From positions 6,600,501 to 6,664,500 of the forward strand of contig NZ_CP067102.1 in assembly GCF_016616885.1 (NCBI RefSeq): 64,000 nt of DNA, written 5' to 3'. The notes under the pieces are model-generated. The model was not told the origin of the DNA, did not search any database, and worked only from the letters and a program-made list of their open reading frames with translations. The first letter of the stretch is position 1. Each line of letters starts with the position of its first letter. A program made the translations under genes and the position numbers. The DNA comes from Bradyrhizobium diazoefficiens (GTDB taxonomy: Bacteria; Pseudomonadota; Alphaproteobacteria; Rhizobiales; Xanthobacteraceae). Shown piece after piece: positions 33,476 through 52,281 of the stretch.

Positions 33476-34255
33476 CTACTTATCCTTCACCGGCACGGTG
33501 TAGTTCAAAACCAATCGCCCGCCATCGGGATAGATGGTCTGCCCGGTGATGTAGGACGCATCGTCGCTCGCAAGGAACGCCACGACCGAGGCGACCTCGC
33601 TCGGCTCGCCGCCGCGGCCGGCCGGCGTGCGCGACATCACGGTCTTGCGGGCATCCTCGGATGTATAGATGGAGGACGCCACCATGTCGGTCAGGATCGT
33701 GCCCGGCCCGACCGCGACGACGCGGATGTTGTGCGGTGCGAGTGCGACGGCGGCCACCGAGGTCAGCTGCTTCATGCCGCCCTTTGACATGGCGTAGGTC
33801 GCGAGCGCCGGGATCGCCAGTAGCGCGTTCACCGAGGACATGTTGATGATGACCCCGCCGCTGCCTTGCGCGATCATCTGCTTGGCCGCGGCCTGCACGC
33901 CGAAGAACGCGCCCTTCAGATTGATGCCGATGATTTCGTCGAACTCCTCTTCGGAGATCTCCAGGATGTCACGGTTGCGCGCGACGCCGGCATTGTTGAC
34001 CATGATGTCGAGCCGGCCGAACTCCCGGACCGCGGTCGCCACCACACGATCCACGTCCGCGCGTCGTGCGACATGGCACGGCACGGCGTAGAGCTCCTTG
34101 GGTTTGCCCAGCTCGTTGACGGTCTTCTCGAGCTCATCGGTGTCGACGTCCGAGATGACCACCTTGACGCCGTCTTCAAGGAACCGCTTTGCGCAGGCCT
34201 TGCCGATACCGCGTGCTGCGCCGGTGATGACGGCGACTTTGCCGGATAGTTTCAT
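33476..34255 (-). CDS. short-chain dehydrogenase/reductase (classical SDR)
   Basis: A 259-aa SDR starting MKLSGKVAVITGAARGIGKA at the ATG 34255; a GTG at 34264 adds three residues. The cofactor motif TGAARGIG, then MVNNAG, the catalytic Ser in NMSSVNALLA and the YAMSKGG (Tyr-x3-Lys) motif are all present. VISDVDTDE at the end of beta-2 has an Asp, which favours NAD(H). It could oxidise an alcohol or reduce an aldehyde or ketone. It follows the two-subunit ThDP decarboxylase on the same strand (57-bp gap), so it may act on the aldehyde or acyloin made by that enzyme. Confidence 0.92.
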   Translation of the reverse strand: MKLSGKVAVITGAARGIGKACAKRFLEDGVKVVISDVDTDELEKTVNELGKPKELYAVPCHVARRADVDRVVATAVREFGRLDIMVNNAGVARNRDILEISEEEFDEIIGINLKGAFFGVQAAAKQMIAQGSGGVIINMSSVNALLAIPALATYAMSKGGMKQLTSVAAVALAPHNIRVVAVGPGTILTDMVASSIYTSEDARKTVMSRTPAGRGGEPSEVASVVAFLASDDASYITGQTIYPDGGRLVLNYTVPVKDK

Positions 34256-34312
34256 AGGACACACTCCAGGATAGCTGCTTATGCAGCGAGCTATCCCGGA
34301 GAGGACTCCCGT

Positions 34313-34915
34313 TCAAGCCGCCGCGAAGCCGAGATGAGCACGCAACCGGTTCTTGATAAAGACGGCATCGCGCGAGGGCAGCGAACGCGGCGGATTCTCG
34401 GCCAAAACCTTGATGACAAAAAGCCGCGGGCCGCCGGCCGGTCCGGCCATCTGCGTCGCGAGACGCTGCACCTCCTCGAGCGTCCGCAACGTGGCGGCTG
34501 CCGCAAAGCCGCAGGCCGTGGCGATCGCGGCGAGATCGACGCCACGGCCGGTGTGGCTCGCCTGCATCCCGGTCTCACCAAAATGCTGGTTGTCGATCAC
34601 GACGATATCGAGATTGCGCGGGCGCGCGACGCCGATGGTGGCGATGCCGCCGAGGCCCATCAGCTGCTCGCCGTCGCCGGTCAAGGCAATCACGCGCTTG
34701 CCCGGCTGGGCCTGCGCGAGGCCGAGCCCGATCAGTGCGGCGCCGCCCATCGCGCCCCAGAGATAAAAATTGTCGGCGCGGTCGCCGGTCGCGTGCAGAT
34801 CGTAGGTCGGCGAGCCCAGGCCGGAGACGACCAGCGTGTCCTTGCGGTTCTTCAGCAGCGCTGCGACGGCGGCGCGGCGATCGAGTTGGGAGGAAACGGT
34901 CATCAACATCACCAC
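34313..34915 (-). CDS. ThDP-dependent decarboxylase, cofactor-binding (beta) subunit
   Basis: A 200-aa protein that corresponds only to the C-terminal ThDP-binding domain of enzymes such as acetolactate synthase. The ThDP/Mg motif is ALTGDGEQLMGLGGIATIG, with the conserved Asn in DIVVIDNQHFGETGMQ. YLWGAMGGAALIGLGLAQAQ is the usual lead-in. The alpha subunit with the PYR domain is encoded directly upstream with a 7-base overlap. Two-gene enzymes of this type include phosphonopyruvate and sulfopyruvate decarboxylases. The substrate here is unknown. The start could also be the ATG at 34909 or 34903. Confidence 0.85.
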   Translation of the reverse strand: MVMLMTVSSQLDRRAAVAALLKNRKDTLVVSGLGSPTYDLHATGDRADNFYLWGAMGGAALIGLGLAQAQPGKRVIALTGDGEQLMGLGGIATIGVARPRNLDIVVIDNQHFGETGMQASHTGRGVDLAAIATACGFAAAATLRTLEEVQRLATQMAGPAGGPRLFVIKVLAENPPRSLPSRDAVFIKNRLRAHLGFAAA

Positions 34916-35451
34916 TTCTTCTTGCCGATCAGGCGCTGCCCGATCAGGACCGCGATCTGCTGGTCGGACTCGTAAGCGAGCGACGCCGCAGATTCGACGG
35001 TCTCGACCAGATCGTCAGACGTCTCCGCGCGCATCACCTTCAGCCCGATCGCTTCCAGCGAGGGCTGCGTCGCCCGGTTCATCGGCACCTGCCAGGGATT
35101 GAACTCGGCCCATTCGCCGCGCATCGTCACCAGCATCAGCAGCGGAAAGCGGCCGATCGCCGACAGCGACAGCATGTTGATGCAATTGCCCACCCCGCTC
35201 GACTGCATCAACAGCACGCTGCGCTGGCCGCCAAGCCAGGCGCCCGCGGCAATGGCGATACCTTCTTCCTCGGTCGTCAGCACATTGGTGGTGACGCCAC
35301 GGTCGGACGAGAACATGCGGATCAGCTGGCTGTGGCCGGCATCCGGCACGTACGACATCTGCCTGACGTCGGCGGCCTTCAGGACGCGATAGAGCTCGGA
35401 CGGCCAGTCATCACTGCTGCGCGCTTCGGGATTGGGTTGGGGGCTATGCAC
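34909..35451 (-). CDS. ThDP-dependent decarboxylase, PYR-domain (alpha) subunit
   Basis: A 180-aa protein equal to the N-terminal PYR domain of ThDP enzymes. WPSELYRVLKAADVRQMSYV and PDAGHSQLIRMF are the domain start. VLTTEEEGIAIAAGAWLGGQ carries the Glu expected to activate the ThDP aminopyrimidine. SVLLMQSSGVGNCINML is the next conserved block. With the overlapping beta-subunit gene it would form a complete alpha2beta2 enzyme like sulfopyruvate or phosphonopyruvate decarboxylase. No sulfonate or phosphonate genes are visible nearby, so another 2-oxoacid is equally possible. Confidence 0.85.
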   Translation of the reverse strand: MHSPQPNPEARSSDDWPSELYRVLKAADVRQMSYVPDAGHSQLIRMFSSDRGVTTNVLTTEEEGIAIAAGAWLGGQRSVLLMQSSGVGNCINMLSLSAIGRFPLLMLVTMRGEWAEFNPWQVPMNRATQPSLEAIGLKVMRAETSDDLVETVESAASLAYESDQQIAVLIGQRLIGKKKW

Positions 35452-35781: not shown

Positions 35782-36495
35782 CTAATTCGCCGCAGACCTC
35801 GCCATGGCCGGCATGTAGATCTGCGCGTAGCCTTCCTTGATCGCAGAGGTGATGCGATCGAGGCGGCGGTCGATATGCTTCTCCAGCACCGAGACGCAAG
35901 CCTCTTCGTTCCGCGCCTTCAGCCCTTCGACGACAGCGCGGTGCTCGGCCTGGGTGTTGGTGCGGTTGATGCTGTCCATGTCGATCCAGCGCACGAAGCG
36001 GATGCGGGCGTTGACGTTGCGCAGCACGCGCAGCATCTCGGCGTTGTTCGACATGCTCATCAGCCGCTCGTGGAAGGTCTCGTCGAGCTCGACGAGCTCC
36101 ACCGAGGAGCGCTCGCCGGGATCGGGGCCGGTGGCTTCGAGGAATTTCAGCAGCGCGTCGATATCCTCGTCCTTGGCGCGCTTGATGGCGAGGCGGACCG
36201 AGGCGACCTCGATCGACTTGCGCAGCTCGTAGAGATCGAAGATCTCGTGCGCGTCGAGCTCGCGGCAGAAGAAGCCCTTGCCCGGCGTGAAGCGCAGGAA
36301 GCCCTCGGTGTTGAGACGGTTGAGCGCTTCGCGCAGCGGCGTGCGGCTGACGCCAAGGCGCTTGGCCAGCTCGCCTTCGTTGAGCCGCTCGCCCGGTTTG
36401 AACTCATAGCTCACGGCCATCGCCTTGAGCTGTTCATAGACGCGATCGACGATACTATCGGAAGCCAGTTCCACGTTGCTCTTCATAAGCTGCAT
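35782..36495 (-). CDS. GntR family regulator, FCD (FadR) subfamily
   Basis: A 237-aa regulator; the start could be the ATG at 36495 or 36486. The winged helix (about 10-75) has IVDRVYEQLKAMAVSYEFKP, GERLNEGELAKRLGVSRTPL and REALNRLNTEGFLRFTPGKG. The helical FCD ligand domain (90-215) has IFDLYELRKSIEVASVRLAI, LDETFHERLMSMSNNAEML and the metal-type His segment (VVEGLKARNEEACVSVLEKH). It is the first gene of the block on the left, next to the racemase and D-amino-acid dehydrogenase genes, so it is the natural candidate regulator. FCD proteins usually respond to carboxylic acids or amino acids. Confidence 0.9.
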   Translation of the reverse strand: MQLMKSNVELASDSIVDRVYEQLKAMAVSYEFKPGERLNEGELAKRLGVSRTPLREALNRLNTEGFLRFTPGKGFFCRELDAHEIFDLYELRKSIEVASVRLAIKRAKDEDIDALLKFLEATGPDPGERSSVELVELDETFHERLMSMSNNAEMLRVLRNVNARIRFVRWIDMDSINRTNTQAEHRAVVEGLKARNEEACVSVLEKHIDRRLDRITSAIKEGYAQIYMPAMARSAAN

Positions 36496-36588
36496 TCATA
36501 ACCGAACACAGCCCAATATACCGAGCCTGCGGGAGCGATTGCAATGCAAACGAGAGGAGGACCGTGAAGCGCTTCGCAACGGCCGGAA

Positions 36589-37332
36589 TCAGGCGAAGAC
36601 GCGCGGACGCAGTCCAGCATGAAACCAGGTGATCATGGAATAGATGTCGTAGACCGGGAGCCCCACTTCAGCCTGCAAAGCTGCGGCATAGGGCGGCATG
36701 TTGGTGCATTCGAGCACGATCGCGCCGACATCGGGGTTTTTGGCGACCAGCTGCTTGCCAGCCTCGACCACGTCACGCTCGGCCAAGCCGACGTCCATGT
36801 CGTCCTTCTCGGCCTTGATCAGCACGCGGAAGAATTCCTTGCCGTGCTCGGTCCCGACCAGCGGCGTATCGAGCGGCACGCCGGCACCCTCGAGATGGGC
36901 CGGCGTCAAGGTCGAGCCTGACACCGTGACGAGACCGACGCGCTTGCCGGGCGGCAGGGTCGCCTGCACCCACGGCACCTGCATCAACGACGAGGTCGCG
37001 ACGGGCACGCCGACGGCGGCCGCGATCTCCTTCTGGAACAGCGAGAGGAAGCCGCAATTGGTGGTGATGGCCTCGGCCCCGAGCCGCACCAGGTGCTTGG
37101 CCGCATCGATGAAGTCAGGCAACAGGCCGGCCGCGCCTTTCAACACCACCTTCTCCGGCGACGCGCCGCTCACCACGCGATAGAGCACCGGGAATGGCCA
37201 GGTCGTGCCATTGCCCATGTCGCCGGGAATGCGAGCGAAGCGCGCTTCCAGCATCAGGATGCCGAGCGGCGCGCCGTAGATGGCCTTGCCGCCACGGGCA
37301 ATACGAGAAGGCGAGTTGGCTGGATAAGTCAT
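36589..37332 (-). CDS. aspartate/glutamate racemase family protein
   Basis: A 247-aa protein of the Asp/Glu/hydantoin racemase superfamily. The two catalytic-cysteine positions appear as AITTNCGFLSLFQ and IVLECTNMPPYAAAL. GILMLEARFARIPGDMGNGT is the domain start, and KRVGLVTVSGSTLTPAHLEG the second-half motif. PLP is not needed in this family. Substrate may be an amino acid, a hydantoin or an arylmalonate; racemisation of an amino acid is favoured because a DadA-like D-amino-acid dehydrogenase gene lies just upstream in the same direction (9-bp gap). No export signal is present. Confidence 0.85.
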   Translation of the reverse strand: MTYPANSPSRIARGGKAIYGAPLGILMLEARFARIPGDMGNGTTWPFPVLYRVVSGASPEKVVLKGAAGLLPDFIDAAKHLVRLGAEAITTNCGFLSLFQKEIAAAVGVPVATSSLMQVPWVQATLPPGKRVGLVTVSGSTLTPAHLEGAGVPLDTPLVGTEHGKEFFRVLIKAEKDDMDVGLAERDVVEAGKQLVAKNPDVGAIVLECTNMPPYAAALQAEVGLPVYDIYSMITWFHAGLRPRVFA

Positions 37333-37341
37333 GGTGCGATC

Positions 37342-38607
37342 TCAGAGGAAGCGGGTGGGCGCGAACGGTGCGAGCGGAATTTCTGGCTGCTTGCCGCTCA
37401 GGAGCTGCGCGACGAGGCGGCCGGTGCGGGCCGAGCTGACCAGACCGATATGGCCATGGCCGAAGGCATAGACGACGTCACGCGACGCGCGTGCGTAGCC
37501 GATGCAGGGAATGCCGTCGGGCATGCTCGGCCGATGCCCGAACCAGGTTTTGATGCGCGAGGCCGGGATGTCCTTCGGCAGTTTTGGGAACATGCTGAGG
37601 AGGTTGTTGCGCAAAATCTCGGCGCGCTTCCAGTTCGGCGCAGCCTCGAGGCCGGCGATCTCGACCGTGCCGGCGGCGCGCAGGCCCTTGTCGGTCCAGT
37701 TCACCACCATCTTCGCGTCAGACGCCATCATCGAGCCGCGCGGACCTGATTCCGGGTTCTCGATCATGACGTGATAGCCGCGCTCGGTCTCGAGCGGCAG
37801 CGGATCGCCGATCGATGCCGTCAATCGCTTTGAATGCGCGCCGGCCGCGACCACCGCAGCATCGCAGGGAATCTCGCCGGTCTCGGTGAGGACGGCGACG
37901 AGCTTGTTGCCATTCAACTTCAGCCCGGTGGCTTTGGCGCGCACGAGCTTGGCCCCGTTCGCCAGTGCATGATTTGCCAGCGCCGCAACGTAAGCGCCGG
38001 GATCGCGGCAGCGTCCGGCCTCTTCCACCACCACGCCAAAGGTGTAGCGCGGGTGCAGGTCCGGTTCGCGCTGACGCATCTCGTCGGCGTTCAGCTCCAT
38101 CCATTCGACGCCGACCTTCTTGCGCAGGCGCCAGCCGAGATCGTTGTCGAAATTGCCGCGCGACGGGAAGACGTGCATCACGCCGTTGCGCTCGACCAGC
38201 TCGGGCACGCCGGCCTCCTCCGCGAGCTTCCTGTGCAGCAGCGGCGCGTCCTTCAGGAGATCGCGGAGCGCAAACGCGGTCTTCTCGACCCGCGCCTCGG
38301 TCCAGCCCGACAGCAGATACTTGATCAGCCAGGGCAGCGCCTTCGGCAAGTAAGACCAGCGGATCGCGAGCGGGCCGAGCGGGTCGATCAGATAGCCCGG
38401 CACCTTCTTCCAGACGCCCGGCTCCGCCGGCGGGATCACCGAATGCGAGGAGAGCCAGCCGGCATTGCCGTAGCTCGCCGCCTGTTCGCCGCCGGGCTCG
38501 CCTGCATCGATCAACGTGACCCGATGACCCTCGCGCAGCGCCTCGATGGCGCTGATCACACCGACCGCGCCGGCTCCGATGATGGCGACGTGGCGGCCCT
38601 CTGCCAT
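37342..38607 (-). CDS. DadA-like D-amino-acid dehydrogenase (FAD, DAO family)
   Basis: A 421-aa flavoprotein. HVAIIGAGAVGVISAIEALR is the FAD Rossmann motif, LIDAGEPGGEQAASYGNAGW the DadA signature. IPCDAAVVAAGAHSKRL and the C-terminal WFGHRPSMPDGIPCIGYARA / VYAFGHGHIGLVSSARTGRL complete the pattern. It should oxidise a D-amino acid to a 2-imino acid, passing electrons to the respiratory chain. It sits between the racemase gene and an IlvB-like ThDP enzyme (3-bp gap), with ridA further upstream in the operon, matching the imine product. Substrate specificity is not readable. Confidence 0.9.
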   Translation of the reverse strand: MAEGRHVAIIGAGAVGVISAIEALREGHRVTLIDAGEPGGEQAASYGNAGWLSSHSVIPPAEPGVWKKVPGYLIDPLGPLAIRWSYLPKALPWLIKYLLSGWTEARVEKTAFALRDLLKDAPLLHRKLAEEAGVPELVERNGVMHVFPSRGNFDNDLGWRLRKKVGVEWMELNADEMRQREPDLHPRYTFGVVVEEAGRCRDPGAYVAALANHALANGAKLVRAKATGLKLNGNKLVAVLTETGEIPCDAAVVAAGAHSKRLTASIGDPLPLETERGYHVMIENPESGPRGSMMASDAKMVVNWTDKGLRAAGTVEIAGLEAAPNWKRAEILRNNLLSMFPKLPKDIPASRIKTWFGHRPSMPDGIPCIGYARASRDVVYAFGHGHIGLVSSARTGRLVAQLLSGKQPEIPLAPFAPTRFL

Positions 38608-38610
38608 CGG

Positions 38611-40272
38611 CTACGCCTTCACCGCCGGCGTGAAATCCTTGCCGACCGACATCGCGCGTGGATCGATGATGCAATGGAGGATCGACGGCTTGCCCGACGC
38701 GAGCGCGCGCTCGAATGCCGGCGCGAATTCTTCGGTGCGCTCGACGCGCTCGCCATGGCCGCCGAACGCCCTGGCGTACATCGCAAAATCAGGGTTCTTG
38801 AGCTGGGTGCCGACGACGCGACCGGGATAGTCACGCTCCTGGTGCATGCGGATGGTGCCGTATTGCGAATTGTCGACGACGATCACGATCAGCGGCGCGT
38901 CATACTGCACGGCCGTTGCGAATTCCTGGCCGTTCATCAGGAAGCAACCGTCGCCGGCAAAGGCGACGACGACGCGATCCGGAAATTGCCGCTTGGCCAG
39001 CACGCCCGCCGGCACGCCATAGCCCATCGAGCCCGAGGTCGGCGCGAGCTGGGCCGCAAAGCTGTGGAAGCGATGATGACGATGGATCCAGCCGGCATAA
39101 TTGCCGGCGCCGTTGCAGACGATCGCATCCTTCGGCAGGCGATCGCGCAGCCAGGTCATGACCCGACCATACTGGAACGTGCCCGGCAGCTCGCGCGCCT
39201 TGTCGGTCCAGGCGAGGTAATCGGCATGCGCCTTGGCGGCCTCGCCCTTCCAGGCAACTGAGCCTGCGGGCTTCAGCGTCTCAACCGCCGCAGCGAACGC
39301 GGCGGGCGTCGCCTGAATCGCGAGCGCGGGCTGATAGATGCGGCCGAGCTCTTCGGAGCTCGGATGCACGTGGATCAGCCTCTGCTTCGGCGTCGGAATG
39401 TCGAGCAGCGTGTAGGACGACGACGGCATCTCCGACATGCGGCCGCCGATCAGCAGAATGACGTCGGCGTTATCGATACGCGCCTTCAGGCCCGGGCTCG
39501 GCCCGATGCCGAGATCGCCGGCATAATGCGAATGGTCGGCGTCGATCAGCGACGCGCGGCGAAACGAGGTCGCGACCGGAAGGTCGAACCGTTCGGCAAA
39601 ACGCGCGATGCTTTTGGTCGCTTCATCGGTCCAGCGCGAGCCGCCGAGGATGACGAGCGGCGCCTTGGCGCTGGCAAGCATCGCGCTGACCTGCTCGATG
39701 TCAGCGGGCGCGGGCCAGCTCACCGCCGGCTCGATGCGCATGGCATCGGCGACGGCCGCAGTCTCGGTCAGCATGTTCTCCGGCAGCGCGATCACGACCG
39801 GACCCGGGCGGCCCTGCAACGCAACGCGGAAGGCGCGCGCGACCAGCTCCGAAATGCGATCGGGTCGATCGATCTCCACCGCCCATTTCGCCATGGAGCC
39901 GAACACCGCCTTGTAGTCGAGTTCCTGGAACGCCTCGCGCTCGCGCATGCCGGTATCGACCTGGCCGACGAACAGGATCATCGGCGTCGAATCCTGCATC
40001 GCGATGTGAACGCCGTGGCTGGCGTTGGTGGCGCCGGGGCCGCGGGTGACGAAGCAGATTCCGGGACGCCCGGTGAGCTTGCCATAGGCTTCCGCCATCA
40101 TCGCAGCGCCGCCTTCGGCGCGGCAGATCACGACGTCGATCGGGCTGTCATGCAGCGCGTCGAGCGCGGCGAGGTAGCTCTCGCCCGGCACGCAGGTGAC
40201 GCGCTCGACGCCTTGGGCGACCAGCTGATCGATCAGGATCTGGCCCCCGGTGCGGGTGTTGCGAATGGTCAT
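38611..40272 (-). CDS. IlvB-like ThDP-dependent enzyme (acetolactate synthase large-subunit family)
   Basis: A 553-aa three-domain ThDP enzyme, from the ATG at 40272 with CTGCAGGGAGCTGTC ahead of it. PYR domain: GGQILIDQLVAQGVERVTCV, CRAEGGAAMMAEAYGKLTGR (catalytic Glu) and FVTRGPGATNASHGVHIAMQ. The central FAD/NAD-like domain follows, then the PP domain with AFAGDGCFLMNGQEFATAVQ and VDNSQYGTIRMHQERDYPGR. No small regulatory subunit gene is adjacent, so a catabolic decarboxylase or carboligase role is more likely than branched-chain biosynthesis. It is in one operon with ridA and a dadA-like gene, so a 2-oxoacid derived from an amino acid is a reasonable substrate. Confidence 0.87.
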   Translation of the reverse strand: MTIRNTRTGGQILIDQLVAQGVERVTCVPGESYLAALDALHDSPIDVVICRAEGGAAMMAEAYGKLTGRPGICFVTRGPGATNASHGVHIAMQDSTPMILFVGQVDTGMREREAFQELDYKAVFGSMAKWAVEIDRPDRISELVARAFRVALQGRPGPVVIALPENMLTETAAVADAMRIEPAVSWPAPADIEQVSAMLASAKAPLVILGGSRWTDEATKSIARFAERFDLPVATSFRRASLIDADHSHYAGDLGIGPSPGLKARIDNADVILLIGGRMSEMPSSSYTLLDIPTPKQRLIHVHPSSEELGRIYQPALAIQATPAAFAAAVETLKPAGSVAWKGEAAKAHADYLAWTDKARELPGTFQYGRVMTWLRDRLPKDAIVCNGAGNYAGWIHRHHRFHSFAAQLAPTSGSMGYGVPAGVLAKRQFPDRVVVAFAGDGCFLMNGQEFATAVQYDAPLIVIVVDNSQYGTIRMHQERDYPGRVVGTQLKNPDFAMYARAFGGHGERVERTEEFAPAFERALASGKPSILHCIIDPRAMSVGKDFTPAVKA

Positions 40273-40401
40273 GACAGCTCCCTGCAGGCTTTGGCGATGG
40301 ACATCATGGCCTCGCGCAAGTTTTGTTCCGAGGTGGCGTAGGACAGGCGGAAATAAGGTGCAAGGCCGAAACAAACAGTGCAGCGGGCATCGGCACGCAT
40401 G

Positions 40402-40755
40402 TCAGCGCCGCGCGGCAATTGCGATCACCTCAATGCGGCAGGCCGGATCGGCGAGCTCGACCTTGCCGCAGGCGCGGGTCGGCGCATTGCCCGGCACGAC
40501 CCAGGCATCATAGACCGCGTTCATGGCGTCGAAATCGTCCATGGTCTTGAGCCAGACCTGCACGCTGAGCAGTCGCGATTTGTCGGTGCCGGCGCGCGCC
40601 AACATGTCATCGACCTTTGCCAGCGCCTCATTGGTCTGCTGGGTGATGTCGGCGGTCTTGGTATCAGCCACTTGTCCCGCCAGGAAAACGAGATCGCCGA
40701 ATACGGAAGCGCGGCTGCGGCGGGCGTTCTGGTCGATGCGGGTGATGTCCGACAT
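40402..40755 (-). CDS. RidA family reactive-imine deaminase
   Basis: A 117-aa protein of the YjgF/YER057c/UK114 family. It has SVFGDLVFLAGQVADTKTAD, DITQQTNEALAKVDDMLARA, the segment SVQVWLKTMDDFDAMNAVYD and the C-terminal CGKVELADPACRIEVIAIAA. An Arg near the end (DPACRIEV) is at the position that binds the substrate carboxylate. RidA proteins hydrolyse 2-imino or enamino acids to 2-oxo acids. Its place between a 2-hydroxyacid dehydrogenase gene and a DadA-like flavoprotein operon fits this job. AAGGA lies before the ATG. Confidence 0.9.
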   Translation of the reverse strand: MSDITRIDQNARRSRASVFGDLVFLAGQVADTKTADITQQTNEALAKVDDMLARAGTDKSRLLSVQVWLKTMDDFDAMNAVYDAWVVPGNAPTRACGKVELADPACRIEVIAIAARR

Positions 40756-40771
40756 GGGGGTCCTTATTGCT

Positions 40772-41689
40772 TTACTTGCCGGTGGCGATGATGCGGCGGC
40801 AATGATCGAGCGCCGCGCCGATCAGGTTGTCGCTCGCCTCGGGCGTGCGGAACGCCGAATGCGCCGACAGCGTCACGTTCGGCAGCTTTGTCAGGGCGTG
40901 CCCAGCGGGCAGCGGCTCGACGGTGAAGACGTCGAGGCCGGCATGGGCAATGTGGCCCGAGCGCAGCGCATCGAGCATCGCGTCCTCGTCCACGACGGCG
41001 CCGCGCGCGGTGTTGATCAAAATGCTGCCCTTGCGCATCTGCGCGATGCGCTGGCGCGACAGAAAGCCCTTGGTCTCGTCGTTGAGCAGAAGATGCAGCG
41101 AAACGACATGGCTCTCCGCCAGCAGCTTCTCCAGCGACACGAATTCGACGCCCGGATGCGTCTTCGGCGTCCTGTTCCAGGCGATCACCTTCATGCCGCA
41201 GCCCGCCGCCATGCGCGCGGCTTCCGCCGCGATGCCACCGAAGCCGATCAGGCCGAGGGTCTTGCCGGTGAGCTGCACGGCATCACGCCGTAGCCAGTTG
41301 CCTTCGCGCATGCCGCGGTCCATCTCGCCGAAGCTTTTGGCAGAGGCCCACATCAGCGCGATCGCGCATTCGGCCACGGCGGTGTCGCCATAGCCCTTGA
41401 TGGTGTGGACGGCGATGCCGCGCTCGGCGAGCTCCTCCGGGTTCATGTAGCTGCGCGCGCCGGTGCCGAGGAAGACGACGTGCTTTAGCTTCGCGCACTT
41501 CCCGGCAATGGCTGAGGGTACGGCGGTGTGATCGACGATCATGATCTCGGCATCGCCGAGCAGGCCGGGCAGATCATCGGGCTTGATCGAGGGATTGCGG
41601 TTGATGCCGACGGGCAGTTTCGCCACGCCGAGCAGCTTCTCGGTAACCGCGGCCAGCGTGTCGTTGGCATCGACGAAAACAGCACGCAC
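40772..41689 (-). CDS. D-isomer-specific 2-hydroxyacid dehydrogenase
   Basis: A 305-aa NAD(P)-dependent enzyme from the GTG at 41689, which has GGAGAAAGTCT ahead of it; a longer frame starts at 41737. Cofactor motif GKTLGLIGFGGIAAEAARMA, then SILINTARGAVVDEDAMLDA (catalytic Arg region), GLDVFTVEPLPAGHALTKLP (Glu) and VTLSAHSAFRTPEASDNLIG (catalytic His). It reduces a 2-oxoacid to a D-2-hydroxyacid or the reverse. It is the first gene of the leftward operon with ridA, ilvB-like, dadA-like and racemase genes, all of which concern 2-amino/2-oxo acids. It diverges from the amino-acid binding protein. Confidence 0.9.
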   Translation of the reverse strand: MRAVFVDANDTLAAVTEKLLGVAKLPVGINRNPSIKPDDLPGLLGDAEIMIVDHTAVPSAIAGKCAKLKHVVFLGTGARSYMNPEELAERGIAVHTIKGYGDTAVAECAIALMWASAKSFGEMDRGMREGNWLRRDAVQLTGKTLGLIGFGGIAAEAARMAAGCGMKVIAWNRTPKTHPGVEFVSLEKLLAESHVVSLHLLLNDETKGFLSRQRIAQMRKGSILINTARGAVVDEDAMLDALRSGHIAHAGLDVFTVEPLPAGHALTKLPNVTLSAHSAFRTPEASDNLIGAALDHCRRIIATGK

Positions 41690-41815
41690 AGACTTTCTCC
41701 TCTCATTCCCGGATCGCAAAACCAGACCATGGTCCACCAGGCGTCACGCGATTTTCTCTCGCTTTGCCAGAGGATTAGGCTTCCATCGCCCGATCACTCA
41801 AATTGCCGGCAGAGG

Positions 41816-41832
41816 TGCAATACCATATTGCA
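41816..41832. promoter_or_regulatory. 17-bp palindromic operator in the divergent promoter
   Basis: TGCAATACCATATTGCA is a perfect 7-bp inverted repeat around a 3-bp centre. It lies between the leftward 2-hydroxyacid dehydrogenase operon and the rightward amino-acid binding-protein gene. Size and symmetry suit a GntR/FCD dimer, so the GntR protein encoded at 35782-36495 is the likely ligand. A related half-site (ATTGCAATGCAA) occurs at about 36538, upstream of that gntR gene. Confidence 0.55.
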
Positions 41833-41899
41833 TTACGGTCTGAATACAGAAATAGTCCTTGAATCGGAGTTGTCGATCATTCCCCAGGGAGCACTGACC

Positions 41900-42736
41900 A
41901 TGAACCGCAGGGACGCACTCACCACCGTCGCGCTGGCGGGCGCGGCAATGGCCACGACAGCAGCGGCCAAGGCCGACACCGCCCCGACCTCCACGCTCGA
42001 CCGCATCAAGAAGAGCGGCGTGCTGCGGATCGCAGTGATCGCCGGTCAGGATCCCTATTTCCACAAAGACCTCGCGACCAATCAATGGTCGGGCGCTTGC
42101 ATCGACATGGCGAACGACATCGCGGGCAAGCTGGGCGTCAAGGTCGAGACACTGGAATCGACCTGGGGCAACCAGATCCTCGATCTCCAGGCCGACAAGA
42201 TCGACCTCGCCTTTGCCGTGAACCCGACGCCGGAGCGCGCACTGGTGATCGACTTCTCGACGCCGATCCTGGTGCACTCCTTCACCGTCATCACCAAGAA
42301 GGGCTTCGCCAAGCCTCAGACCTGGGGCGAGCTCAACAAGCCCGAGGTCAAGATCGCCGTCGACATCGGCTCGACGCACGAGACGATCGCGCGCCATTAC
42401 TGCCCGAAGGCGACCATCCTCGGCTTCAAGACGCGCGACGAAGCGATTCTCGCGGTGTCGACGGGCCGGGCCGACTGCAATGTCTCGCTGGCGGTGCTTT
42501 CGGTCTTCACGCTGAAGAAGAATCCGACGCTTGGCGAACTCGCGATCCCGCGCCCGCTGCTGACGCTGCCGACCAACCTCGGCATCCGCGCCGAAGCCGA
42601 TCTTCGCTACAAGGATTTCCTCAGTGCCTGGGCCGACTACAACCGTTCGCTGGGCCAGACTCGTGAATGGCTGCTGAAGGCCTATGAAACCGTCGGCCTC
42701 AGCGCCGAGGACATCCCGAGCGAAGTGCAGTTCTGA
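41900..42736 (+). CDS. amino-acid-type ABC transporter substrate-binding protein (family 3)
   Basis: A 278-aa periplasmic binding protein. The ATG at 41900 follows AGGGAGCACTGACC. MNRRDALTTVALAGAAMATT has a twin-Arg start and an export signal ending near AAAKADT. The mature part has LDRIKKSGVLRIAVIAGQDP, the family-3 pattern, then MANDIAGKLGVKVETLESTW, KIDLAFAVNPTPERALVIDF and IAVDIGSTHETIARHYCPKA. Polar amino acids are the usual ligands. No permease genes are adjacent. It is divergent from the racemase/dadA/ridA operon and shares its palindromic operator region, so it probably brings in the amino acid that operon degrades. Confidence 0.9.
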   Translation: MNRRDALTTVALAGAAMATTAAAKADTAPTSTLDRIKKSGVLRIAVIAGQDPYFHKDLATNQWSGACIDMANDIAGKLGVKVETLESTWGNQILDLQADKIDLAFAVNPTPERALVIDFSTPILVHSFTVITKKGFAKPQTWGELNKPEVKIAVDIGSTHETIARHYCPKATILGFKTRDEAILAVSTGRADCNVSLAVLSVFTLKKNPTLGELAIPRPLLTLPTNLGIRAEADLRYKDFLSAWADYNRSLGQTREWLLKAYETVGLSAEDIPSEVQF

Positions 42737-45916: not shown

Positions 45917-47107
45917 TTATTGATGCTCGATCGCGCGGATCGCGCCGCGGAGCTCGGCGAGCCCCCGGAGGCGGCCGATTGCAGTATAGCCCGGATTGGT
46001 GCGCTTGGTGGCGGCGAGATCGTCGAGCATGCGGTGGCCATGATCGGGACGGAACACGATTTGCTTGTCCGGCGAACGCCGCGCGTTCTCCTTCAACAGC
46101 ACCTTCAGCACCGCGACCATGTCGACGTCGCCATCGAGATGATCGGACTCGTAGAACGTCAGGCCGTCGGCCTCGCGCTTGGTCGCACGCAGATGCGCGA
46201 AAGCGATCCGCGGGCCGAAACGCTCGGCCATCGCAGGCAGATTGTTCTCGGCACGCACGCCGAGCGAGCCGGTGCACAGGCAGATGCCGTTGGCCTGGGA
46301 CGGCACGGCACCGAACAGCGCCTGGTAGTCGTCGGCGGTCGAGGCGACGCGCGGCAGGCCGAACAGCGGGCGCGGCGGATCATCCGGATGTAGGGTCAGC
46401 GACACGCCGAGTTGCTCGGCGACCGGCGCGACACGCGCGAGGAACTCGGCGAGATGCTGCCGCAGGACCTTTGGCGTGATGTCACGATAGGTCTCTAACC
46501 GATCGCGGAATTGCGGGATGGTCATCGGCTCGGTGGTCGAGCCCGGCAGCGCGCTGGCGATCGCCATGATGAGATAGTCGATGTCCGCCTGGCTCATCTT
46601 CTCGAACCGCGCCTTCGCGCGCGCCTGCGCTTCCTGCGAATATTCCTGCGCGGCCGCAGGGCGCTTGAGGATATGCAGCTCGAACGCCGCAAAGCGGTCC
46701 TGGTCGAAGCGCATGGCGCGGGCGCCGTTCGGCAGCTCCCATTCCAGATCGGTCCGGCACCAGTCGACCACAGGCATGAAATTGTAGCAGATGATCTTGA
46801 TGCCGGAAGCGGCCACCGCCTCCAGGCTCGCGATCCACGCTTCGATCGACTTCGTTGCCTTGGCCCCGAGGCGCTTGACGTCGTCGGGGATCGGAATCGA
46901 TTCCACCACCGACCAGGTCAGCTGCGAGCGGCCGGGCTGGCCGCGCTCGATGAAATCCTTGCGCTCCTCGACCGCCTTGCGCGTCCAGGCCTCCCCAATC
47001 GGGACCTGATGCAGCGCCGAGACGATATCTGTCGCCCCGGCCTGCCTGACATCGTCGAGCGAGACCGGATCATCCGGCCCGTACCAGCGCCATCCCTCTA
47101 GCATCAT
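45917..47107 (-). CDS. uxuA: mannonate dehydratase
   Basis: A 396-aa enzyme that converts D-mannonate to 2-keto-3-deoxygluconate in hexuronate breakdown. MMLEGWRWYGPDDPVSLDDV with QAGATDIVSALHQVPIGEAW is the typical UxuA start. GIKIICYNFMPVVDWCRTDL, LTLHPDDPPRPLFGLPRVAS (metal His), NGICLCTGSLGVRAENNLPA (metal Cys) and VFRPDHGHRMLDDLAATKRT (metal Asp/His) follow. The ATG overlaps the dehydrogenase stop by 4 bases. Together with the divergent uxuB and the TRAP transporter it defines a hexuronate locus. Confidence 0.96.
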   Translation of the reverse strand: MMLEGWRWYGPDDPVSLDDVRQAGATDIVSALHQVPIGEAWTRKAVEERKDFIERGQPGRSQLTWSVVESIPIPDDVKRLGAKATKSIEAWIASLEAVAASGIKIICYNFMPVVDWCRTDLEWELPNGARAMRFDQDRFAAFELHILKRPAAAQEYSQEAQARAKARFEKMSQADIDYLIMAIASALPGSTTEPMTIPQFRDRLETYRDITPKVLRQHLAEFLARVAPVAEQLGVSLTLHPDDPPRPLFGLPRVASTADDYQALFGAVPSQANGICLCTGSLGVRAENNLPAMAERFGPRIAFAHLRATKREADGLTFYESDHLDGDVDMVAVLKVLLKENARRSPDKQIVFRPDHGHRMLDDLAATKRTNPGYTAIGRLRGLAELRGAIRAIEHQ

Positions 47108-48165
47108 GGATCTCTCCGGTCAGCGGTCAGCACGACCTTGACGCTCTGCGAGCGGTCGAGCGCCAGCCGCAACGCGTCCGGCGCAGTCGACAGCGGCCGC
47201 TCGGCCGTGACCAGCGACAGCACGTCGACGCTGCCCGCACCGATCAGTTCCACCGCGGTCATGAATTCGAGCCCAAAGCGGAACGAGCCGCGCAGGTCGA
47301 TCTCCTTCGCCATCACCGCATTCGACGGCGTCGGAATCTGGCCGCCCGGCAGGTTGCCGATCTGCACGACAATACCACCGCGCCTGACAATGCCGATGGC
47401 GCTGGCAAGACCCGCGGCCGTGCCAGAGACTTCGAACGCGACATCGTAGGGACGCGAGGCCGCCTGCGCTTTCAGGCCCTCTTCACCGTTTGCGACGTTC
47501 TCGACATGCGATGCGCCGAGCCGGGTCGCGAAGGCCAGCGGGGCCGATGCGATGTCGGCCACCGTGATATCGGCCATGCCGGCGCGGTGCGCGGCCAACA
47601 TGGTCAGAAGCCCGATCGGACCGGCGCCAAAGATGATGCCGCGCTTGCCCTGGATGTTACCGGCACGCGCGACGGCGTGCAGGCAGACCGCAAGAGGCTC
47701 GGCGAGCGCTGCGGCCTGATAGGACACATGGTCCGGGATCTTCACGCACTGCGCCGGGATCGCATCGAAATAGTTGGCAAAACCGCCCTGCATATGCGGC
47801 GTTTTCGACGCCGAACCCATGAAGTAGATATTTTCGCAGAGGTTTTGACGACCCTCGCGACAGGCAGTGCAATGGCCGCACCAGCGCGACGGATTGACGG
47901 CGACGCGGTCGCCGACCTTCAGGTTCGCCGCCGAGCCGGCGATCTCCGCGACCTGGCCCGAGATCTCGTGCCCGAGCACCAGCGGCGACTTCACCACGAA
48001 GTCGCCGGTCCGGGCGTGGCGGAAGTAATGCATGTCCGAGCCGCAGATGCCGCCGGCACCGAAGCGGATGCGCACCATGCCGTCTGCGAGCCTGTCGAGC
48101 GGATGCTCGATCATGCGCAGATCTTCGGGGCCGAACAGGGTTGCGGCGAGAGAGGTCGAGGTCAT
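47104..48165 (-). CDS. zinc-dependent alcohol dehydrogenase, L-idonate 5-dehydrogenase-like
   Basis: A 353-aa MDR-family enzyme from the ATG at 48165; the frame is open upstream, but that part lies inside dctM. Catalytic zinc ligands are in GGICGSDMHYFRHARTGDFV (Cys) and LVLGHEISGQVAEI (His-Glu). The structural zinc site is WCGHCTACREGRQNLCENIY. IIFGAGPIGLLTMLAAHRAG binds NAD(P). The DMHYF and HARTGDFVVKSPLVLGHE pattern is that of L-idonate 5-dehydrogenase and sorbitol dehydrogenase. It probably interconverts a sugar acid with its keto form, feeding uxuA's pathway. It overlaps dctM and uxuA by 4 bases each (ATGA). Confidence 0.9.
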   Translation of the reverse strand: MTSTSLAATLFGPEDLRMIEHPLDRLADGMVRIRFGAGGICGSDMHYFRHARTGDFVVKSPLVLGHEISGQVAEIAGSAANLKVGDRVAVNPSRWCGHCTACREGRQNLCENIYFMGSASKTPHMQGGFANYFDAIPAQCVKIPDHVSYQAAALAEPLAVCLHAVARAGNIQGKRGIIFGAGPIGLLTMLAAHRAGMADITVADIASAPLAFATRLGASHVENVANGEEGLKAQAASRPYDVAFEVSGTAAGLASAIGIVRRGGIVVQIGNLPGGQIPTPSNAVMAKEIDLRGSFRFGLEFMTAVELIGAGSVDVLSLVTAERPLSTAPDALRLALDRSQSVKVVLTADRRDP

Positions 48166-49568
48166 TTGGAAAGTCCCATGTATTTCGGCAGCCAGAGGGT
48201 CAGTTCGGGAATGTAGGTGATCGCGATCAGCGCGACCAGCAGCGGCACCAGCCAGGGCAGGATCGCGACCGTGGTGCGCTCGACCGAGAGCTTCGCCACG
48301 CGCGCGAGCACGAACAGCACCATGCCGAGCGGCGGATGCAACAGGCCGATCATCAGGTTCAGCGTCATGATCAGGCCGAAATGAATGGGATCGATGCCGA
48401 GCTTGAGCACGATCGGCAGCAGGATCGGCACCAGGATGGTGATCGCCGCCGTGGTGTCGATGAAGCAGCCGACGAACAGGATCAACACGTTGGCGAGCGC
48501 CAAAAACACCCATTTGTTGTGGGTGATGCTGAGCATCCAGTCCGAGAGCAGCTGGGCGGCCTGCGACACCGTCAGCAGCCAGGCGAAAATCGAGGCGGCG
48601 GTGACGATGAACAGCACCGAGGCCGTGGTCTCGATGGTATCGAAGGTCGCCTTCGCCACGGTCTTCAAGGTCATGGTGCGGTAACGCACGAGGCCGAGGA
48701 ACAGCGACCAGATCACGGCGGCGACCGCGGCCTCCGTCGGCGTGAACCAGCCGAGCGTCATGCCGCCGATCAGGATGACAGGCGCCATCAGCGCCATCAC
48801 CGCCGAAAAGTCGAAATACCAGTCGATCGCGAGCAGCGCGCCGAGCCCGATGACGACCGCGAGGTTGGTCGATAGGCCGGCCAGCGTCATCAGCCAGATC
48901 GCGAGCGGGAAAGACAGCACGACGACGATCTCGAGGCCGGCCGAGCCGAGCTGCGGCCAGGAGAACGGGGTGTCGCTGCCCCATTTATTCCGGTAGGCGA
49001 AGTAAGTGACCGTCGCCATCATCAGCAGCGTCAGGACCACGCCGGGAATGACGCCGCCAAGAAACAGCGCACCGATCGAGACATTTGCCATCATGCCGTA
49101 GATCACGAAGGGCAGCGACGGCGGGATGATGGGCCCGAGCGTCGCAGAGGCCGCGGTGACGCCGACGGAGAACTCGGTGGTGTAGCCGTGGTCCTTCATC
49201 GCCTTGATCTCGATGGTGCCGAGACCGGCGGCGTCCGCGATCGCGGTGCCGGACATGCCGGAGAAGATCACCGAGCCGATGATGTTGACGTGGCCGAGGC
49301 CGCCGCGCATCCAGCCGACCAGCGCAACCGCGAACTTGTAAATGCGGCCGGTGACGCCGGCGATGTTCATGAGATTGCCGGCCAGGATGAAGAAGGGCAC
49401 GGCGAGCAGCGGAAAGCTCTCGACGCCCGCGATCATGCGTTGCGCCAGCGTGACATCGGGCGTCACGCCGCTGACCAGGATGTAGAGCAGCGACGACGCG
49501 GCCATGGCAATCGCCACGGGAACGCCGAGCAGCATCAGGACGAGGAAACCTCCGAGCAACAGCAACAT
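48162..49568 (-). CDS. dctM: TRAP transporter large permease subunit DctM
   Basis: A 468-aa polytopic protein with about 12 hydrophobic segments, from the ATG at 49568 behind GAAGGG. It has PLLAVPFFILAGNLMNIAGV and the family blocks SGMSGTAIADAAGLGTIEIK and GVTAASATLGPIIPPSLPFV, the latter typical of DctM. FVGCFIDTTAAITILVPILL and LGIDPIHFGLIMTLNLMIGL follow, then THPP-like LLHPPLGMVLFV. It imports a carboxylate with Na+ or H+, together with DctQ and the binding protein. Genes around it suggest a hexuronate or related sugar acid. Confidence 0.95.
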   Translation of the reverse strand: MLLLLGGFLVLMLLGVPVAIAMAASSLLYILVSGVTPDVTLAQRMIAGVESFPLLAVPFFILAGNLMNIAGVTGRIYKFAVALVGWMRGGLGHVNIIGSVIFSGMSGTAIADAAGLGTIEIKAMKDHGYTTEFSVGVTAASATLGPIIPPSLPFVIYGMMANVSIGALFLGGVIPGVVLTLLMMATVTYFAYRNKWGSDTPFSWPQLGSAGLEIVVVLSFPLAIWLMTLAGLSTNLAVVIGLGALLAIDWYFDFSAVMALMAPVILIGGMTLGWFTPTEAAVAAVIWSLFLGLVRYRTMTLKTVAKATFDTIETTASVLFIVTAASIFAWLLTVSQAAQLLSDWMLSITHNKWVFLALANVLILFVGCFIDTTAAITILVPILLPIVLKLGIDPIHFGLIMTLNLMIGLLHPPLGMVLFVLARVAKLSVERTTVAILPWLVPLLVALIAITYIPELTLWLPKYMGLSK

Positions 49569-49572
49569 GGAA

Positions 49573-50151
49573 TTACCCTTCAAAACCGTCGTAAGCGCCG
49601 GGGCGTTCGAGGATCGAATAGCCCTGCCGCAAATGTTGCAGCGCGACCTGCAGCGAGCGAACGAACATCAGCACGAAGCCGAGCAGCACGGCGTAGTAGA
49701 CGTAGTTCTTGGGAAAGTTGATCGTGGTCATAGACTCGTCGCCGATGATCTGGATGTAGACCCAGACCAGCTTGACGGCGTAGCCGAAGAAGGCGATCCG
49801 GATCAGGTCGATGACCGTCGACAGCGCGCGCGCCACGGCATGCGGCAGATAGCGGTAGATCAGGTCGACCTGGATGTGCCGCGACAGCCGCACGCACATC
49901 GAGGCGCCGATGAAGACCACGCCGATCAGGCAATAGGTCGCGATCTCCTCGGTCCAGGCGTAGCTGTCGTTGAGGACGTAGCGGGTGAAGAACTGCAGGA
50001 AGACGGCGAGCGCCATCACCCAGAAGATCGCCAGCGCCACCCAATCCTCGAATGCGTAAATGCCGAGATCGACCTTCGGCATGGCCTCCTCCTCGAAGGT
50101 ATGGGCAATCTCGTCCCCGGTGATCTGCCGGTGCGCTTCGGCGGTCGACAT
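49573..50151 (-). CDS. dctQ: TRAP transporter small permease subunit DctQ
   Basis: A 192-aa protein with four hydrophobic segments, from the ATG at 50151 behind TGAGGAG. After a charged N terminus (HRQITGDEIAHTFEEEAMPK) come DWVALAIFWVMALAVFLQFF, the DctQ hallmark RYVLNDSYAWTEEIATYCLI, GVVFIGASMCVRLSRHIQVD and a final helix pair. Its stop lies 4 bases before dctM. A dispersed repeat separates it from dctP upstream. It works with DctM in the inner membrane. Confidence 0.93.
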   Translation of the reverse strand: MSTAEAHRQITGDEIAHTFEEEAMPKVDLGIYAFEDWVALAIFWVMALAVFLQFFTRYVLNDSYAWTEEIATYCLIGVVFIGASMCVRLSRHIQVDLIYRYLPHAVARALSTVIDLIRIAFFGYAVKLVWVYIQIIGDESMTTINFPKNYVYYAVLLGFVLMFVRSLQVALQHLRQGYSILERPGAYDGFEG

Positions 50152-50175
50152 GTGGTTACTCCTCAAAACCCGAAC

Positions 50176-50277
50176 GTCATTCCGGGGCGATGCGTGAGCA
50201 TCGAACCCGGAACCTCGAGATTCTCCGGTGCGCAATTGCGCACCGGAGTTCGGTCCTACGGACCGCCCCGGAATGAC
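50176..50277. repeat. palindromic repeat in the dctP-dctQ gap
   Basis: The ends GTCATTCCGGGGCG and CGCCCCGGAATGAC are perfect inverse copies. CATCGAACCCGGAACCTCGA follows the left arm, and CTCCGGTGCG pairs with CGCACCGGAG in the core. It is the same family as the inner element at 15768-15847 in kdp. It lies in a transcribed gap and could attenuate or process the mRNA between the abundant binding protein and the permeases. Confidence 0.8.
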
Positions 50278-50287
50278 GGCTACGCCG

Positions 50288-51265
50288 TCACTTCACCGCC
50301 TGGATGCGTTCCCAATCGGCCTTGCGATAGCCAAAGGTCTCGAACGGAACGTTCTTCAGCACGATGTCGCGGAACTCGTTCTTGTCGACCTCGGTCACGG
50401 TCAGGCCCTTTTCCTTAAAGAAGGCGACGAGCTTGGCCTCGTTCTGCTTGATCTCCTCGGTCGCTTTCGCGGCAGCCTCCTGCGCGACGTCGGTGAAGAT
50501 CTTCTTGTCCTCGTCCGAGAGCTTCTTCCAGAGCGCGCCAGCGACGACGGTGTTGAGGTGGTCGACGATGTGGCCGGTCAGCACGATGTGCTTCTGTACC
50601 TCGTAGAACTTCTTGGCCTCGATCGTCGGCAGCGGGTTCTCCTGCGCCTCGACGGTGCCGTTCTGGAGCGCGAGATAGACCTCGGCGAATGCGATCGGCG
50701 CGGTGTTGGCGCCGCAGGCGCGCGGCATGGCGAGATAGGCCGGCACGTCGGGCACGCGCATCTTCAGGCCCTTGAGGTCGGCGCAGGTCTTGATCGGCTT
50801 GTTCGACGAGGTCTGGCGCACGCCGTAATAGGTCACCGCGATGATGTGATGACCGCTCTTGTCCTCATACCCCTTGGCGAGCTCCTTGAAGATGTCGCTC
50901 TTGGTGTAGGCGAGCAGATGATCGGCGTCGCGGAAGGTGTAGGGATAATAGGTCACGCCGATCGGCGGAAAGCTCTTGGCCGCGAAGCTCGAGCCGGAGA
51001 TGATGATGTCGACCGAGCCGAGCGAAAGGCCCTGGTTGATGTCGGCTTCCTTGCCGAGTTGCGACGCCGGATAGACGTCGATCTGGTAGCGCCCGTTGGT
51101 GCGCTTGCCGATCTCCTGTGCGGCCCAGACCGAAGCGGTGTGGAACGGCTCCGAGGTCTCGTAGACATGGGCCCATTTCAACTTGGTCTGCGCCAGGCCG
51201 GCCTGGGTAGTGGCAAGCATCGCCGCGGCCGAGACCGCCAGCACCGTCGTCATCTTCTTCAACAC
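50288..51265 (-). CDS. dctP: TRAP transporter solute-binding protein DctP
   Basis: A 325-aa periplasmic protein. The signal peptide MLKKMTTVLAVSAAAMLATT ends near AGLAQ-T. The mature start KLKWAHVYETSEPFHTASVW, the RYQIDVYPASQLGKEADINQ block, GLKMRVPDVPAYLAMPRACG (the Arg that binds the ligand carboxylate) and FAEVYLALQNGTVEAQENPL are the DctP family pattern. It binds a carboxylated ligand, here probably a hexuronate. It is 70 bp from the regulator gene on the same strand; a 10-bp palindrome, GACTTAAGTC (51281-51290), lies just upstream. Confidence 0.94.
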   Translation of the reverse strand: MLKKMTTVLAVSAAAMLATTQAGLAQTKLKWAHVYETSEPFHTASVWAAQEIGKRTNGRYQIDVYPASQLGKEADINQGLSLGSVDIIISGSSFAAKSFPPIGVTYYPYTFRDADHLLAYTKSDIFKELAKGYEDKSGHHIIAVTYYGVRQTSSNKPIKTCADLKGLKMRVPDVPAYLAMPRACGANTAPIAFAEVYLALQNGTVEAQENPLPTIEAKKFYEVQKHIVLTGHIVDHLNTVVAGALWKKLSDEDKKIFTDVAQEAAAKATEEIKQNEAKLVAFFKEKGLTVTEVDKNEFRDIVLKNVPFETFGYRKADWERIQAVK

Positions 51266-51333
51266 TGAATATCCTCCACTGACTTAAGTCTGCTTCTTGT
51301 TCACCCGCCCGAAACGAGGCGAGCCGCCCAGTC

Positions 51334-52143: not shown

Positions 52144-52199
52144 GCTGGCCCTCCCCCAGAGGCCGCGCCGGTCGATCCGGCGGCCCGCCAATTTTGGAT

Positions 52200-52216
52200 A
52201 ATTGGCCTTACCAATT
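52200..52216. promoter_or_regulatory. UxuR/ExuR-like operator between gntR and uxuB
   Basis: AATTGGCCTTACCAATT is a 6-bp perfect inverted repeat (AATTGG/CCAATT) with a 5-bp centre. The enterobacterial UxuR/ExuR site, as I recall it, is AAATTGGTATACCAATTT, with the same arms and spacing close to this. It is placed 57 bp before the regulator start and 66 bp before uxuB, where it could control both. Confidence 0.65.
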
Positions 52217-52281
52217 GACCGGAGCATTGACCGAGGACGGGTGCCATGTCAAGCAGCGGCCAAACACAGGGAGAGCCGACC

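Follow-up and report, generated by a model that had tools for sequence, protein, structure and literature searches.

The 64,000-nucleotide window of Bradyrhizobium diazoefficiens analysed here (RefSeq assembly GCF_016616885.1, contig NZ_CP067102.1, positions 6,600,501 to 6,664,500) carries, between its positions 35782 and 42736, what on balance appears to be a partly eroded, GntR/FCD-controlled operon for amino-acid catabolism by racemisation, oxidation, hydrolysis and decarboxylation. An amino acid would enter through an ATP-binding cassette (ABC) transporter, represented in the window by nothing but its binding protein, a two-cysteine racemase would equilibrate its L and D forms, a flavin adenine dinucleotide (FAD) enzyme would turn the D form into an imine, and RidA would assist hydrolysis of the imine to a 2-oxo acid. 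This acid would then be decarboxylated or ligated by a thiamine diphosphate (ThDP) enzyme, and a 2-hydroxyacid dehydrogenase (HADH) might reduce it as a side reaction or to relieve overflow; ancestrally, an aminotransferase would have given a direct link between L-amino acid and 2-oxo acid, as a second entry. The gene set, its co-conservation, its erosion with a gene stub left behind, a conserved dyad, purifying selection and the fold and cysteines of the racemase are features read from the sequences themselves, and from them we infer that all catalytic steps act on one compound, in this order and direction, and that the ThDP enzyme decarboxylates rather than carboligates. The genes and elements concerned are as follows.

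35782..36495, minus strand: GntR/FCD transcriptional regulator (PF00392 and PF07729 over cut-off)
36589..37332, minus strand: two-cysteine racemase with the Asp/Glu/hydantoin racemase fold, PRK07475 family
37342..38607, minus strand: FAD-dependent oxidoreductase of the DAO family, DadA-like (PF01266, 203 bits)
38611..40272, minus strand: ThDP-dependent enzyme, PRK08199 subfamily (NF006052, 899.9 bits; cut-off 539)
40269..40373, minus strand: 3' stub of an aminotransferase gene, 34 codons and stop (nucleotide alignment and tblastn)
40402..40755, minus strand: Rid-family protein, RidA-like (PF01042 over cut-off)
40772..41692, start possibly at 41737, minus strand: D-isomer-specific HADH (PF02826, 194 bits)
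41840..41849: CTGAATACAG dyad between the divergently oriented promoters of HADH and the binding protein, a predicted operator of GntR
41900..42736, plus strand: family-3 amino-acid-type solute-binding protein (SBP; SBP_bac_3, PF00497)

Open reading frames (ORFs) and family scans bear out the genes, strands and close spacing listed in a first-pass annotation of this DNA (by the ORF list 3 bp between the ThDP and FAD genes, 9 bp between the FAD and racemase genes and 16 bp between those of RidA and HADH), and no terminator-like site was found on the minus strand from 35782 to 41740, where the scan yielded fewer sites than its shuffles. The intact six-gene pathway envisaged by that annotation is however ruled out for the window, since the aminotransferase is reduced to a stub and the permease and ATPase are gone. 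The 126 bp between the RidA and ThDP genes contain, in frame, the last 34 codons of the aminotransferase, the stop codon of which overlaps the ThDP start codon (ATGA); the stub gives a 105-base alignment with the aminotransferase gene of locus L046 and a tblastn match of 34 residues at 91%, and the full-length relative scores 542 bits with PRK06107, below the cut-off of 617.

The erosion is seen across the genus, for which we sampled 80 Bradyrhizobium genomes and fetched 48 loci with orthologues of both the ThDP and the FAD enzyme in addition to the window; locus counts are based on tblastn maps. Seven of 50 loci have the full order ATPase-permease-SBP / HADH-RidA-aminotransferase-ThDP-FAD-racemase-GntR (at L044, one of the seven, the aminotransferase match is in two pieces), while six loci, including the window, lack the ATPase, permease and aminotransferase, and five lack RidA as well. 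Three are reduced to ThDP-FAD-racemase-GntR, 16 to ThDP-FAD-racemase and 12 to ThDP-FAD alone, and one is truncated where its contig ends. The gene losses are thus nested, with the ThDP and FAD enzymes remaining last. The full set is also present in a metagenome-assembled genome of Hyphomicrobiales (L301), the ATPase of which is below threshold in the mapping used for the 50 loci yet visible in the racemase-locus map, and in Bradyrhizobium liaoningense (L287). Aminotransferase stubs of more than 60% identity precede the ThDP gene in 12 of the 50 loci and the GntR gene lies in pieces at L043 and L133, which speaks for loss and not late gain. A quick tree, in which the fewest changes are 6 for the aminotransferase, permease and ATPase, 4 for the racemase and 10 for GntR, is compatible with horizontal gain, but the stubs speak more strongly for loss than the tree does. 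The permease and ATPase, which follow the SBP in 7 of 50 loci, are absent from the window, and searches of its own genome for a close aminotransferase or permease elsewhere gave at best 57% and 53% identity, respectively, which favours loss over relocation, although such a paralogue could substitute for the lost protein. The surviving genes are not decaying but under purifying selection, with pairwise dN/dS of 0.05-0.12 for all seven in the window's group of five loci. The SBP has a value of 0.118 in these five loci, where there is no permease, versus 0.076 where the permease is retained, and the maintenance of this orphan binding protein by selection deserves attention in its own right.

Co-conservation across Bradyrhizobium, the absence of which the first-pass annotation had regarded as fatal to its proposal, was found for the racemase, FAD enzyme and ThDP enzyme. 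Orthologues of the ThDP enzyme (at least 81% identity) occur in 49, of the FAD enzyme (at least 77%) in 50 and of the racemase (at least 93%) in 38 of the 80 genomes; the FAD gene directly follows the ThDP gene in all 49 genomes having both, and the racemase gene in turn comes directly after the FAD gene in each of the 38 genomes that have it (37 fetched loci and the window). At nine loci (L032, L033, L036-L042) the ThDP/FAD pair is found in quite different surroundings, and extra ThDP copies in genomes G009 (79%) and G071 (71%, partial), at loci L058 and L064, have no FAD-enzyme neighbour. RidA, HADH and the SBP, counted as part of the module at the outset, do not belong to its core, as they are present in 13, 18 and 18 of 50 loci, respectively (window included), and the 12 loci that keep the ThDP and FAD enzymes without the racemase show that racemisation is not an obligatory step. 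The cluster copy of HADH is present in 18 of the 80 genomes; a paralogue of about 70% identity (G000:C1:5970036-5970938 in the window's genome) is found at another site in most of them. A paralogous Bradyrhizobium cluster (L050, L051, L052) holds a ThDP enzyme of 27-28% identity, a saccharopine-dehydrogenase-like gene, SBP, permease and ATPase, together with one or two racemases (39-42%) and an FAD enzyme (49-50%).

Outside the genus the three enzymes again co-occur, in Hyphomicrobiales, Rhodobacterales and Rhodospirillales, albeit with members that have diverged or been exchanged. When genomes were scanned with an alignment of racemases, at least 585 loci came up, of which the best 80 from named records were mapped; these are not a census, and among them L231 lies on the contig of query L199 and L283 belongs, under a family-level name, to a genome also in the genus sample. 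The named racemases nearest to that of the window are those of Bradyrhizobium. In Ruegeria pomeroyi DSS-3, genes for the racemase, GntR and a ThDP enzyme stand together. Within 7 kb of these best 80 racemase loci there is an FAD-enzyme relative in 57, a ThDP enzyme in 45 and both in 37, besides an enolase-superfamily enzyme in 34 and a GntR relative in 34; without the five named Bradyrhizobium loci the first three counts are 52, 40 and 32 of 75. The loci with both enzymes fall in Hyphomicrobiales (15), Rhodobacterales (17) and Rhodospirillales (2), with three lacking an order name, and the GntR relatives accompanying racemase relatives outside the genus are 40-53% identical to that of the window. 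On plasmids, 34 records have an FAD-enzyme relative, of which 24 were examined and 10 left out; a same-strand racemase (9) or enolase-superfamily enzyme (4) is nearby in 13 of the 24 and a ThDP enzyme in 11. The order SBP-racemase-permease-ATPase-FAD-ThDP occurs in Agrobacterium, Bosea and Azospirillum, and SBP-permease-ATPase-enolase type-FAD-ThDP in Tistrella, Shinella and Thioclava, the last with a hydroxyacid dehydrogenase and an aminotransferase in addition, while in Pseudoroseomonas GntR, HADH, RidA and the FAD enzyme stand together at 50, 65, 57 and 59% identity, respectively. Furthermore, the FAD enzyme, ThDP enzyme and racemase of L189 have a 4-hydroxyproline epimerase (586 bits, cut-off 376) as a neighbour, and those of L304 a close relative of it. 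That putative epimerases of unrelated superfamilies are swapped beside related FAD enzymes argues that the FAD enzyme receives an epimerised compound.

Some FAD-enzyme relatives have other company. Together with RidA, one is found beside bhcB and bhcC on a Roseovarius plasmid (L214, 8944-12877) and one beside bhcABCD in Aminobacter (L225, 6950-13510), where they possibly feed glyoxylate into the beta-hydroxyaspartate cycle, and those of L213 and L217 adjoin genes for a luciferase-like (LLM-class) flavin monooxygenase and a flavin reductase, a set which we take to be reminiscent of chelator degradation with iminodiacetate oxidase.

The racemase belongs to the PRK07475 family (NF005679; 324.2 bits, cut-off 231), itself labelled 'hypothetical protein'. 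Cofactor-independent Asp/Glu/hydantoin racemases use one catalytic cysteine in each half of the protein, and the window's enzyme has both the racemase fold and a cysteine in each half, Cys93 and Cys209 being invariant in 28 sequences and in a wider set of 18, in support of the original label of an Asp/Glu-type racemase. With the cysteate racemase CuyB (NF052483) it reaches 32.4 bits, below the cut-off of 190. A second PRK07475-like racemase of the window's genome (41%; G000:C1:1779508-1780215, L053) is without an FAD or ThDP neighbour as far as its surroundings were mapped. The FAD enzyme belongs to the PF01266 superfamily, and its relatives of solved structure comprise oxidases of glycine and sarcosine as well as L-amino acid deaminases; its structural model (mean predicted local distance difference test score, pLDDT, 60.2) was too poor to serve as a clue to the substrate. 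The ThDP enzyme scores 309.9 bits with acetolactate synthase IlvB (TIGR00118), below the cut-off of 538, and the Rid protein 52.9 bits with RidA (TIGR00004), below the cut-off of 106, although it belongs to the PF01042 superfamily; by sequence, the Rid protein and HADH are placed at the level of superfamily only.

The dyad CTGAATACAG at 41840-41849 is the sole exact CTGWATACAG in the window, where shuffled sequences have a mean of 0.01. All 26 instances of its nine-base core in 51 loci (938 kb) lie in the 450 bp that precede the first operon gene, and the dyad is present in 18 of 22 loci with an intact GntR gene versus 1 of 29 without, the lone exception (L133) having its GntR gene in two pieces. 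In related clusters with divergent ThDP and GntR genes the dyad core TGTATACA occurs in 28 of 28 ThDP/GntR intergenic regions. The GntR regulator would accordingly seem to be the protein that binds CTGWATACAG. A generic GntR pattern, TNGTNNNACNA, was dropped in favour of the dyad, as it occurs in just 2 of 18 intergenic regions. There are three further CTGAATACAG sites in the genome, one of which (G000:C1:6244690-6244699, L313) is some 80 bp upstream of the gene for a branched-chain-type binding protein and downstream of another FAD oxidoreductase gene, and may be there by chance.

Racemisation, oxidation, hydrolysis and splitting of one amino acid, as first proposed, is still the best reading of these data, but it has to accommodate an eroded window, a dispensable racemase and the non-core position of RidA, HADH and the SBP. 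A number of further observations weigh against it. The racemase is absent from 12 of 50 loci. The loci within the genus are kin, and their counts are not independent events. The best 80 racemase loci include 15 with neither an FAD nor a ThDP relative, and among the 24 plasmid loci there are 10 where neither a racemase nor an enolase-superfamily or ThDP enzyme is a neighbour. Between the window's ThDP enzyme and those of the related clusters identity is just 25-29%, and 40 class-level loci outside the genus (L072-L111) anchored on the window's own ThDP subfamily contain no racemase or FAD-enzyme relative and no common neighbour naming a substrate, which suggests that this subfamily joined the module in or near Bradyrhizobium. 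Some related clusters have tripartite ATP-independent periplasmic (TRAP) and others ABC transporters, so their substrates may differ. In the fold comparison, the racemases of allantoin, hydantoin and aspartate tie as matches of the window's racemase. The FAD enzyme falls below the cut-offs of both D-amino acid dehydrogenase models (PRK00711, 185.7 of 383 bits; PRK12409, 129.6 of 494 bits), so that 'DadA' denotes a resemblance and not the identity. Finally, the dyad is missing at L132 and at L113, L117 and L120, which have GntR and neither HADH nor SBP, and CTGWATACAG is not enriched genome-wide (4 matches versus 6 for the reversed control), which makes it look like a local operator.

Three other explanations can be weighed. 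The FAD enzyme may serve to scavenge D forms from the environment, the ancestral aminotransferase having re-aminated the product to the L form, with the racemase simply widening access and the ThDP enzyme and HADH draining surplus 2-oxo acid. This is in agreement with the persistence of the ThDP/FAD pair without the racemase and with aminotransferase relatives (51-65%) near FAD-enzyme relatives at plasmid loci L208, L212, L215, L222, L224 and L226, but most loci have lost the aminotransferase while retaining the racemase and the swapped epimerases suggest that epimerisation feeds the FAD enzyme, and we therefore consider scavenging with inversion rather unlikely. A special nitrogen compound is likewise improbable as the substrate, distinctly so. 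The substrate of the racemase would then be a hydantoin-, allantoin- or malonate-type compound instead of an amino acid, with the FAD enzyme an oxidase of the glycine, sarcosine or iminodiacetate type, and indeed the fold comparison ties the racemase with those of allantoin and hydantoin and with arylmalonate decarboxylase, the solved relatives of the FAD enzyme are of the kinds named above, and others of its relatives stand beside the monooxygenase and reductase genes (L213, L217) or bhc genes (L214, L225). The relatives at these four loci have however no racemase or ThDP neighbours, the window's cluster has no hydantoinase or carbamoylase, and the amino-acid-type binding protein, the aminotransferase stub and RidA all indicate an amino acid. 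It is very improbable, lastly, that the ThDP/FAD pair is the sole unit and the remaining genes transient neighbours with separate functions, for although only this pair is found in all 50 loci, bar the one at a contig edge, the gene content is nested and not random, the dyad is shared, and GntR, racemase, aminotransferase, RidA and HADH recur together elsewhere.

Beyond the window, we tentatively suggest, as a possibility somewhat short of even, that the operon represents an undescribed amino-acid racemise-oxidise-decarboxylate route of several alphaproteobacterial orders, controlled by GntR/FCD and CTGWATACAG and built of swappable parts around the FAD enzyme as a hub, these parts being the epimerase (cysteine-pair, enolase-superfamily or 4-hydroxyproline type), the ThDP subfamily and the transporter (ABC or TRAP), and that in Bradyrhizobium it has decayed repeatedly, in a fixed order, to a ThDP and FAD pair with its own function. 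No description of this gene set was found in the open-licence literature, including that on CuyB-like and on hydroxyproline systems, most subscription papers being outside that search. Routes from L-amino acids via the D form are seldom recognised because the enzymes are annotated merely to family level. Co-conservation, repeated erosion that exposes the core, the exchange of epimerases and a predicted operator in common offer a concrete, testable frame for clusters of a type that occurs in rhizobia and in marine Roseobacter relatives.

Next to the operon and on the same strand, the window has genes for a ComD/ComE-like split ThDP decarboxylase (34313-35451) and a short-chain dehydrogenase/reductase (SDR), together at 33476-35451, which adjoin a cluster with IclR, KstD-like and branched-chain binding-protein genes; ComD/ComE is beside the operon in 12 and the SDR in 35 of 49 fetched loci. 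A cysteate or sulfonate route, prompted by the ComD/ComE-like genes, was rejected, as scores are below the cut-offs for CuyB, sulfopyruvate decarboxylase and Xsc. Further along, at 45917-53766, UxuA-like, zinc-type alcohol dehydrogenase, TRAP transporter, GntR and mannitol/fructuronate-dehydrogenase-like genes resemble a hexuronate uptake cluster, judged on ORF sequences alone.

The proposed operon shares features with several known systems. The D-amino acid dehydrogenase DadA works with an alanine racemase, and Alr-type racemases depend on pyridoxal phosphate. The window likewise combines a racemase with an FAD dehydrogenase of the same superfamily as DadA, but its FAD enzyme is below the DadA cut-offs, its racemase is of another family and it has an additional ThDP enzyme. 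The arginine transaminase pathway, which uses the 5-guanidino-2-oxopentanoate decarboxylase AruI (model PRK07524), similarly leads from an amino acid via a 2-oxo acid to ThDP-dependent decarboxylation, although the window's ThDP enzyme scores 244 bits with that model, the cut-off of which is 500, and its aminotransferase is lost. CuyB shares the racemase superfamily, yet its model is far from reached, as given above. Closer in layout is the catabolism of trans-4-hydroxy-L-proline, which involves the epimerase 4HypE, a cHyp oxidase of the D-amino acid oxidase (DAAO) superfamily, a deaminase of the dihydrodipicolinate synthase (DHDPS) type and an alpha-ketoglutarate semialdehyde (alpha-KGSA) dehydrogenase (PMC4113996). 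There too an epimerase feeds an FAD enzyme of the DAAO superfamily within a compact cluster for uptake and catabolism, and two related clusters (L189 and L304) have the 4-hydroxyproline epimerase itself. The epimerase of the window is however of another superfamily, its ThDP enzyme stands where the hydroxyproline pathway has a DHDPS-type deaminase and a KGSA dehydrogenase, the scanned genes of its cluster include none for these two or for a hydroxyproline epimerase, and its RidA suggests an open-chain product. Alphaproteobacteria growing on D-amino acids have been reported, without identification of the genes (PMC4836201). Pseudomonas putida, finally, catabolises lysine by way of the D form and so provides a precedent for breaking down an L-amino acid through its D form, but the racemase of that route is periplasmic and of the Alr type (PMC6034422), whereas that of the window is of a cysteine-pair type with no predicted cofactor.

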